From the NCBI GenBank assembly GCA_034716895.1, contig JAYEKW010000256.1, forward strand, positions 1 to 55,749: 55,749 bases of DNA. Direction: 5' to 3'. A program made the translations under genes and the position numbers. Shown piece after piece: positions 12,535 through 15,368 of the stretch. Positions within the stretch are counted from its first letter, which is position 1, and each line of letters starts with the position of its first letter. The notes beneath the pieces were generated by a model. It saw only the letters and a program-made list of their open reading frames with translations, was not told the DNA's origin and did no database searches. Source of the DNA: Candidatus Neomarinimicrobiota bacterium (GTDB lineage: Bacteria; Fidelibacterota; UBA8477; JABMPR01).

Positions 12535-13011
12535 CTACAAAATTGATTTTAGGATTTCTTCGCTGTCGGCTGAGGCATCAGCCATAACTTCTGGTACGAT
12601 TCCGTCCATCATTTTACCCAATAAGCCTGAATTCATCCGGCTGGCATACACCGTACCATCGGAATGCTCATAAATGGCTACACGGCAAGGCATGAGTGAA
12701 GTAACAATTCGCTCATCATCTTTCGCTAATATTTTGCCTGCGTGTTCTGGATGACAAAGTTCAAATACTTTAACTGATTTAACATCCTTGTCAAATTTTT
12801 TCATGGTTTTCTGCAAATCGTGAACGGCGGGCATCTTCCAACCCTGATCTTTAACAGCCTGAGTAAACCGATCAACAGATTCTTCAAAACCATACCTGGT
12901 CTCATCTTCCATCATCATCATTCCAGGTGCTGCATTCCAGGCAAATACGCCTGTCAAAAGTATTCCCAGAATAAAGCCGACCAAACCACTACCAATTATT
13001 TTCGTGTCCAT
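12535..13011 (-). CDS. DUF302-domain protein with N-terminal membrane anchor
   Basis: 158 residues. An N-terminal hydrophobic segment (about 7-29, SGLVGFILGILLTGVFAW) acts as an uncleaved anchor or signal, followed by MMMM and acidic residues. The DUF302 domain starts at YGFEESVDRFTQAVKDQGWKM and includes VHDLQKTMKKFD, VFELCHPEHAGKIL and MPCRVAIYEHSDGTVYAS. The two cysteines sit in positions often conserved in the family. DUF302 function is not established; redox or metal links have been suggested. It lies last in the purine strand block, 192 nt after purD, and may be independent of it. Confidence 0.85.
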   Translation of the reverse strand: MDTKIIGSGLVGFILGILLTGVFAWNAAPGMMMMEDETRYGFEESVDRFTQAVKDQGWKMPAVHDLQKTMKKFDKDVKSVKVFELCHPEHAGKILAKDDERIVTSLMPCRVAIYEHSDGTVYASRMNSGLLGKMMDGIVPEVMADASADSEEILKSIL

Positions 13012-14474: not shown

Positions 14475-14626
14475 TTATCCAATTGTTTTATACCTGAATG
14501 TTCGGGTAAATCCGCTGTAATATATTCCATTCTGTTCCAGATGTGGATACACAAAATAGTTTAGCAGCCCACTCTGATGGCCGGCCCCCAGGTTAAGATC
14601 GCGACCCAAAGTATTAATCTTTTCAT
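14475..14626 (-). pseudogene. Broken small secreted-protein gene (possible frameshift)
   Basis: An ATG at 14626 sits 7-8 nt after an excellent AAAGGAGA site and starts MKRLILWVAILTWG, a good signal peptide. That frame stops at 14561 after 21 residues (...AIRVGC). The neighbouring frame continues without a stop to 14475, encoding AGHQSGLLNYFVYPHLEQNG and then IYYSGFTRTFRYKTIG, which has a beta-strand, outer-membrane-like flavour. The two join at a GGGGG run near 14586, so one base gained or lost would explain the break. Alternatives are a remnant of a larger deleted secreted gene, or a real 21-residue peptide. The family is not recognised. Confidence 0.35.
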
Positions 14627-14711: not shown

Positions 14712-14760
14712 GTCCCTCGACTTAGTTTATCCTGAGCATAGTCGAGGGACTCGGGATGAC
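14712..14760. repeat. REP-like dispersed palindrome
   Basis: An 11-bp perfect stem, GTCCCTCGACT (14712-14722) with AGTCGAGGGAC (14740-14750), is followed by TCGGGATGAC. The loop contains CTGAGCAT. This matches the common 'GTCGAGGGACTCGGGATGAC' class of intergenic palindromes found in many copies in FCB-type genomes. Together with the degenerate small gene at 14475-14626 it fills the 375-nt gap between purD and the Cys/His lipoprotein. No other gene is seen there. Confidence 0.7.
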
Positions 14761-14829
14761 GGACGTTGGCTTCATACGACTATCTGCTTCCAGTTTAATA
14801 TCTATAAGAATGCCTGATCGTTTTCATAT

Positions 14830-15240
14830 TTAACTCTTACAAGCATCAGTACAGGGTCCCTCATGATCGCAAGTTGCTTTATCTGCACATACATCTGCAG
14901 TTTTACAGGCATCAGTATAAGATTCTGCATGATCACAAGCCGTATTATCTGTTGTTGCATTTTGCACTGTACCATGTGTTTTACATGCGTCAGTACATGG
15001 ACCTTCATGATCACAGGTTGCCTTATCTACACTTACATCTGCAGTTTTACAGGCATCAGTACTAGATTCTGCATGATCACAGGTTGCCCCCAGAGCTTTT
15101 GAATCGTGTATCTTACCTACGTCAGGTGCCGCACCATCAACGGCGCAAGCTGTATGTTCCGCTTTAAATCCAGGTGCTTTGCAAGCACATCCCATTAATC
15201 CCAGACTGGCTACTATCACTACTACTAATGTTACTTTCAA
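14830..15240 (-). CDS. Lipoprotein built from duplicated Cys/His modules
   Basis: 136 residues from a TTG at 15240 with GGAGA 7 nt upstream. An upstream TTG at 15294 with AAGGTG is also possible (154 residues, used for the numbering here). Either way, a hydrophobic stretch ends in a lipobox, LGLMGC, so the protein should be a lipidated envelope protein. The mature part carries two copies of a 34-residue module at residues 72-105 and 120-153. Each module is CDHAES[S/Y]TDACK, then TADV...DKAT, then CDHEGPCTDACK, so there are four CDH-x4-TDACK units and 14 cysteines in all. The copies are offset by 144 bp in the DNA. Regular Cys and His suggest metal binding, but this is inference. I know no named family. 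It lies between purH and purD. Confidence 0.8.
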   Translation of the reverse strand: MKVTLVVVIVASLGLMGCACKAPGFKAEHTACAVDGAAPDVGKIHDSKALGATCDHAESSTDACKTADVSVDKATCDHEGPCTDACKTHGTVQNATTDNTACDHAESYTDACKTADVCADKATCDHEGPCTDACKS

Positions 15241-15368
15241 TTTGGTTTCTCCAATTTCTACAAGGTTATGTTTCAATATTTTGCTTCGTGACAATATTAG
15301 TCACCTTATAGTCGAGTCCAAAACAAAAGTTCCGGAGAAGTGTCGCCTGGCATACATTTCAGTTGAAA

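Follow-up and report, generated by a model that had tools for sequence, protein, structure and literature searches.

Between purH and purD in a genome of Candidatus Neomarinimicrobiota lies a short gene, here denoted lipoA, that encodes a Cys- and His-rich repeat lipoprotein. On balance, we think that its product is probably an exported, lipid-anchored and disordered metal sponge facing the periplasm, similar to SilE in its mode of action and not homologous to it. The window, that is, the whole stretch of DNA analyzed, comprises the 55,749 nucleotides of contig JAYEKW010000256.1. We infer both the metal binding and the physiological role of lipoA. The function belongs to a known kind, the periplasmic metal buffer; the repeat unit and the family are absent from the libraries searched.

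The lipoA gene and its product

The open frame of lipoA (Table 1) comprises 136 codons with no internal stops and opens with TTG at position 15240; comparison of the leaders of related genes shows GGAG or GGGAG at the place corresponding to its ribosome-binding site. The protein reads MKVTLVVVIVASLGLMG-C18-ACKAPGFKAEHTACAVDGAAPDVGKIHDSKALGAT, followed by units that begin with CDHAESSTDAC, CDHEGPCTDAC, CDHAESYTDAC and CDHEGPCTDAC. Inspection by eye finds the charged n-region, hydrophobic stretch and lipobox Cys of a lipoprotein (M-K-VTLVVVIVASLGLMG-C18), with the lipobox LMG-C18 after the hydrophobic stretch and an uncommon Met at position -2. The lipobox points to lipidation of C18 and to a location in the envelope, facing the periplasm.

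The mature protein contains 14 Cys among 119 residues (13 without the lipid Cys), and Asp is abundant as well. Cys makes up 10.3% of the whole of lipoA, compared with 0.85% over the 38 other proteins of the window, and 200,000 shuffles of the mature sequence never reached four C-x-H-x7-C units; the pattern is therefore not due to chance. Short repeated cores containing Cys and Thr behind a variable leader would also befit the precursor of a RiPP-like modified peptide. This leader, however, is a lipoprotein signal, and reading of the neighboring open reading frames recognized neither a modification enzyme nor an exporter; we consider such a precursor extremely improbable.

Table 1. Positions of lipoA, its repeat units and associated features (window coordinates unless a locus is named).
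Feature	Position	Strand	Remarks
lipoA, Cys/His-repeat lipoprotein gene	14830..15240	(-)	open frame, lipobox, ribosome-binding site; G016 homologue at same site
GGAG ribosome-binding site of lipoA	15249..15252	(-)	from sequence; 9-12 nt upstream of TTG
Candidate promoter TTGGAC-N16-TAATAT, then TGTCA	15294..15321	(-)	motif kept upstream of lipoA and most EHGG and lipoB genes
Unit 1, CDHAESSTDAC, middle Cys lost	15049..15081	(-)	
Unit 2, CDHEGPCTDAC	14983..15015	(-)	protein identical to unit 4, 6 silent changes
Unit 3, CDHAESYTDAC, middle Cys lost	14905..14937	(-)	
Unit 4, CDHEGPCTDAC	14839..14871	(-)	
Internal duplication, first copy, 101 nt	14981..15081	(-)	
Internal duplication, second copy, 101 nt	14837..14937	(-)	offset 144 bp
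Relic, C-terminus of transglutaminase-core lipoprotein gene	14478..14612	(-)	80% identity over 45 aa to intact G001 gene
Dispersed spacer repeat, ~52 bp	14750..14801	.	3 genome copies at E<=1e-5
HVCTDAC...YAHGEKGH protein, Bacteroidota mer operon	L080:5001-5324		
HVCTDAC...YAHGEKGH protein, Bacteroidota mer operon	L096:1297-1626		
HVCTDAC...YAHGEKGH protein, Bacteroidota mer operon	L105:4835-5104	(-)	
HVCTDAC...YAHGEKGH protein, Bacteroidota mer operon	L106:4601-4870		

Repeat units and their duplication

A sequence-only reading of this DNA had described the gene as a lipobox followed by two near-identical 34-residue modules with an exact 144-bp offset. Both its placement and its description of the gene are accurate: the modules (aa 54-87 and 102-135) are identical in 31 of 34 residues, and the two 101-nt DNA copies share 88% identity at exactly that offset. 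The paired units that it reported are present as well, two C-x-H-x7-C units per module, but the natural period is 22 residues, not 34. The elementary 22-residue units of lipoA start at aa 54, 76, 102 and 124, with a decayed unit at aa 32, and those of the homologue in genome G016 at aa 32, 54, 76 and 98. The 34-residue module is a duplication of two 22-residue units and is a mosaic in age.

The same reading had taken the duplication to be recent, which fits the first units only. Among the 12 nucleotide differences between the 101-nt copies, 8 are silent, and all of these fall within codons 73-87, the second unit of the pair, where there is no replacement; the first units (codons 54-72) differ in 3 replacement codons and in no silent change. 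Because the differences are spread so unevenly, the copies are not of one simple recent origin, and partial re-homogenization, or duplication of only part of the region, appears to explain them better. The middle Cys is missing from alternate units (CDHAES[S/Y]TDAC versus CDHEGPCTDAC), so that units 1 and 3 have three potential ligands.

Selection on the repeat unit

Whole-genome searches identified a sole close homologue of lipoA, in G016, a genome of the same genus, where it likewise lies between purH and purD. No third homologue was detected among 245 genomes of the phylum with a two-sequence profile (lipoA is thus present in 2 of 245), none in 295 genomes of the class of one Bacteroidota relative in a search run without a positive control, and none in a scan of GTDB contigs with a probe set that did not include CDHEGPCTDAC. 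The G016 protein, MQKLWILVIVISLGMIG-C18-ACKAP..., likewise displays the lipoprotein features by eye and contains four full C-x-H-x3-C-x3-C units. Its sub-threshold matches to Fer4 and Ezh2-CXC reflect Cys spacing and were rejected.

Between the two species, the identical CDHEGPCTDAC units show pN of 0 and pS of 0.63-1.26, with silent sites near saturation, the signal region shows pN of 0.30, and the linkers vary too; for purH and purD of the same species pair, pN is 0.05 and 0.11, respectively. Units that remain identical and differ only silently indicate selection on the unit at the protein level, ligand residues included. A His is found in every unit and is kept in both species, and the conservation of Cys and His positions anticipated by the sequence-only reading holds in this only close homologue.

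These observations bear on the alternative that lipoA is a disulfide-rich structural repeat protein of the envelope, with a binding or cell-wall role to which metal is irrelevant. Cys-rich repeats, fast evolution and the envelope location suggested by the lipobox would all suit such a protein, but conservation of His and of the C-x-H spacing, the odd number of Cys (13 apart from the lipid Cys) and the alternate units that lack the middle Cys would not. We regard this as an unlikely explanation.

The purH-purD interval

Across the genus, the purH-purD interval serves as a stable slot in which envelope lipoproteins with abundant metal-ligand residues are encoded under a promoter of their own. 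A Cys/His lipoprotein lies between purH and purD, or directly behind purH, in 15 of the 19 genus genomes, which contradicts the earlier suggestion that the place of lipoA is accidental; the repeats noted in the flanking spacer at the same time do exist, as a dispersed element of about 52 bp (Table 1). Genome G001 has two copies of this element, and one of these again lies between purH and purD.

A different Cys/His lipoprotein, lipoB (VKKLLGV...VSCAHK..., with DHxC[TS]xxC repeats), was found in 13 of the 19 genomes. In 11 of these, its distance upstream of purD is about 150 bp; in one, it is located behind purH with about 1 kb left to purD; and in another, it comes after purH, with purD on a different contig. 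The number of exact H-x-C-x3-C repeats ranges from 2 to 7 in the ten proteins counted, so that copy number varies among these related site-mates of lipoA. A lipoprotein with EHGG repeats is encoded in 8 of the 19 genomes. In all six intervals read (G001, G003, G004, G010, G012 and G013), its gene comes immediately after purH, and the gene of a transglutaminase-core lipoprotein comes next, with lipoB behind that in four of the six. The EHGG lipoproteins at loci L036, L038, L039, L041, L043 and L044 combine EHGGQEHGG repeats with a conserved domain of about 120 aa (IKGAMNAYI...KIHDPVRKIEGKGFFACTDF) for which neither Pfam nor NCBIfam gives a match above cut-off. The transglutaminase-core gene, the intact form of which carries PF01841, is complete between purH and purD at L036, L039, L041, L043 and L044; in the interval of the window, lipoA is retained, and no more than the C-terminal end of the transglutaminase-core gene remains. 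Elsewhere in the window, a gene between purB and purD (12535-13011, minus strand) encodes a DUF302 (PF03625) protein that has a hydrophobic segment at its N-terminus.

Turnover of this kind, with a transglutaminase relic, a dispersed repeat and one genome (G014) in which the gap from purH to purD is only 45 bp, could be expected if lipoA were a decaying or selfish repeat frame that does little and that a variable spacer tolerates, and its restriction to two genomes of the phylum would agree with that. Against this explanation stand the intact frame with its ribosome-binding site and conserved promoter motif, the purely silent divergence of the identical units between species, and the retention of some Cys/His lipoprotein at the site in most of the genus; we consider it improbable.

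Promoter motif, leaders and the relationship to lipoB

In a comparison of 18 leaders, a promoter-like sequence, TTGxxx-N15/16-T[AG]ATATTGTCA, precedes lipoA and most of the EHGG and lipoB genes; within the window, none of the other genes tested has the T[AG]ATATTGTCA motif upstream. The lipoA transcript would be expected to start behind TAATATTG. Given this candidate promoter of its own behind purH, no purine role is implied for lipoA. About 40-80 bp upstream of lipoB, TTGATATTGT is invariant across loci L068-L078, and behind it, where the 5' end of the mRNA is expected, comes an inverted repeat (TGTCAAGGATGC...GCATCCAGATGACA). By eye, this forms a hairpin; its consensus energy is weak (-1.9 kcal/mol, two pairs with double changes), and the putative lipoB leader hairpin is no more than suggestive. 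No such hairpin was seen before lipoA.

The two lipoproteins share the lipoprotein signal, the purH-purD site, the promoter motif and Cys/His-rich repeats that end in CTDxC. They differ in the repeats themselves, which are spaced H-x-C-x3-C in lipoB and C-x-H-x3-C-x3-C in lipoA, and in the Met/Lys-rich linkers (HMEKMG) of lipoB. A lipoB profile matched nothing in the window genome (G000) or in G016 at E<=1e-4, and hhalign aligned only the 23-residue signal, not the mature part, for which neither method detects homology. Common ancestry of lipoA and lipoB is plausible from the shared site, promoter motif and CTDxC core.

Bacteroidota proteins with HVCTDAC repeats

The lipoB profile also retrieved more distant proteins of Bacteroidota with HVCTDAC...YAHGEKGH repeats, which have the H-x-C-[TS]-x2-C form seen in lipoB, and querying with one of these matches yielded more. 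They resemble lipoA in being exported and in their repeated H-x-C-T-x2-C units (L079, L080 and L095-L106). Unlike lipoA, they mostly have ordinary signal peptides, other linkers and a mer context, and the likeness is confined to the motif. No Pfam or NCBIfam family matches them above cut-off.

At L105, MerA (TIGR02053, 503 bits versus a cut-off of 454), MerT and ArsR surround the repeat lipoprotein; at L101/L096, MerA (489 bits), MerT-HMA and a metal-sensitive repressor are encoded near the HVCTDAC protein, and MerT is near it at L080 and L106. Among these mer operons (L080, L096/L101, L105 and L106), regulators of the CsoR type or ArsR occur, and a DUF6789-like membrane protein is often found nearby. 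At L079, L095, L098 and L099, no metal genes were seen by eye in the vicinity, and some of these loci encode ECF-type sigma factors. An RND pump encoded at L102, no more than a few kilobases away, scored best as a multidrug type, below every cut-off, and was left out of the metal context.

This mer context supports a predicted binding of metal by the HVCTDAC proteins and, by likeness of motif only, by lipoA. Because likeness of lipoA to lipoB and the Bacteroidota proteins was detected only in the signal peptide and the CTDAC motif, the metal-operon context is indirect evidence for lipoA. MerT is absent from 18 of the 19 genus genomes, including G000, and the only one, in G016, is on another contig; with MerT missing from the window genome and 17 other members of the genus, a mercury role is not supported for lipoA.

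Comparison with known metal-binding proteins

The claim of the sequence-only reading that lipoA belongs to no named family was confirmed: there was no match above curated cut-offs in Pfam or NCBIfam, the best ones being sub-threshold and due to Cys spacing, and no relative in the PDB; lipoB is likewise absent from these libraries. Heme binding was rejected, as lipoA has no CxxCH. AlphaFold2 run on the single lipoA sequence gave no confident fold, only short helices (pLDDT 43, pTM 0.22), and lipoB, modeled with ten sequences, yielded a few helices (pLDDT 54, pTM 0.25). The low-confidence lipoA model is compatible with disorder of the metal-free protein and proves nothing.

Bacterial metallothioneins (SmtA/BmtA) are cytosolic, lack a lipoprotein signal and have a motif unlike that of lipoA; the likeness, a small Cys/His-rich metal buffer, would be one of function, and lipoA has no Pfam match. 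Copper storage proteins (Csp) are pre-folded four-helix bundles that store Cu(I), and the exported Csp1 has a Tat signal (PMC7558416). Like lipoA, they are Cys-rich and include an exported form, but assignment of lipoA to this family was rejected, with no Pfam match and no confident helical bundle (at this pLDDT, a weak test of fold).

The analogy that we propose is with SilE, a periplasmic "molecular sponge" for Ag+ that is disordered when empty and folds upon binding several Ag+ ions (PMC5008109). The proposed likeness would lie in disorder of the empty protein, short repeated metal-ligand motifs and periplasmic buffering. The ligands differ, His and Met in SilE versus thiol and His in lipoA, and no sequence relation was found. 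Our literature search, the coverage of which excluded most subscription journals, found nothing on cysteine-rich metal-binding lipoproteins of Marinimicrobia or on cysteine-rich lipoproteins of Bacteroidetes mer operons.

Proposed function and implications

Under the sponge model, transcription of lipoA would start at a promoter of its own behind purH, its signal peptide would be cut before C18, and the lipidated Cys would anchor it in an envelope membrane toward the periplasm, with a tail that stays mostly unfolded as long as no metal is bound. The 22-residue units would each offer C-x-H-x3-C-x3-C; the G016 units and window units 2 and 4 would provide four ligands, and window units 1 and 3 would provide three. 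Soft or borderline metals, for which Cu(I), Zn(II), Cd(II) and Hg(II) are candidates, might be bound and thereby buffered or detoxified outside the cytoplasm; gain, loss and replacement of units would shift the capacity in evolution. The sequence-only reading had proposed a metal-buffering or redox protein at the cell surface. The metal-binding Cys/His lipoprotein agrees with our inference; surface exposure found no support, and no acidic signal of the kind that directs surface export in Bacteroidota follows the lipid Cys.

Some observations stand against a sponge: the neighbors of lipoA are purine genes, not metal genes, and lipoA contains a decayed unit at aa 32 and has lost the middle Cys twice. 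Periplasmic Cys may form disulfides instead. Along this line, lipoA could be a periplasmic thiol buffer or scavenger of sulfane sulfur, with reversible disulfides or persulfides, in low-oxygen and possibly sulfidic water. The numerous Cys and high Asp of the mature protein would fit, and several relatives are metagenome-assembled genomes with isolate names that suggest stratified waters as their habitat. The His kept in each unit of both species, the lack of a CxxC redox motif in lipoA and of an adjoining redox gene, and the occurrence of the Bacteroidota motif relatives in mer operons all speak against a redox or sulfur role, which we deem rather unlikely even if it is, along with the structural disulfide protein, one of the main alternatives; the metal sponge remains our preferred reading.

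On a broader scale, we raise, as a possibility that we hold with considerable doubt, that the exported H-x(1,3)-C-T-x2-C repeat proteins of Neomarinimicrobiota and Bacteroidota form an undescribed class of metal sponges with fast-evolving unit number and spacing, which in Neomarinimicrobiota would occupy a fixed slot behind purH, with their own promoter and a possible leader hairpin in lipoB. To our knowledge, the phylum Neomarinimicrobiota has few or no cultured members. If metal binding is borne out, C-x-H-x3-C-x3-C would be a compact unit of 22 residues, the copy number of which could tune binding capacity, and the mer operons of Bacteroidota would include an overlooked accessory protein, unnamed in the family libraries searched.
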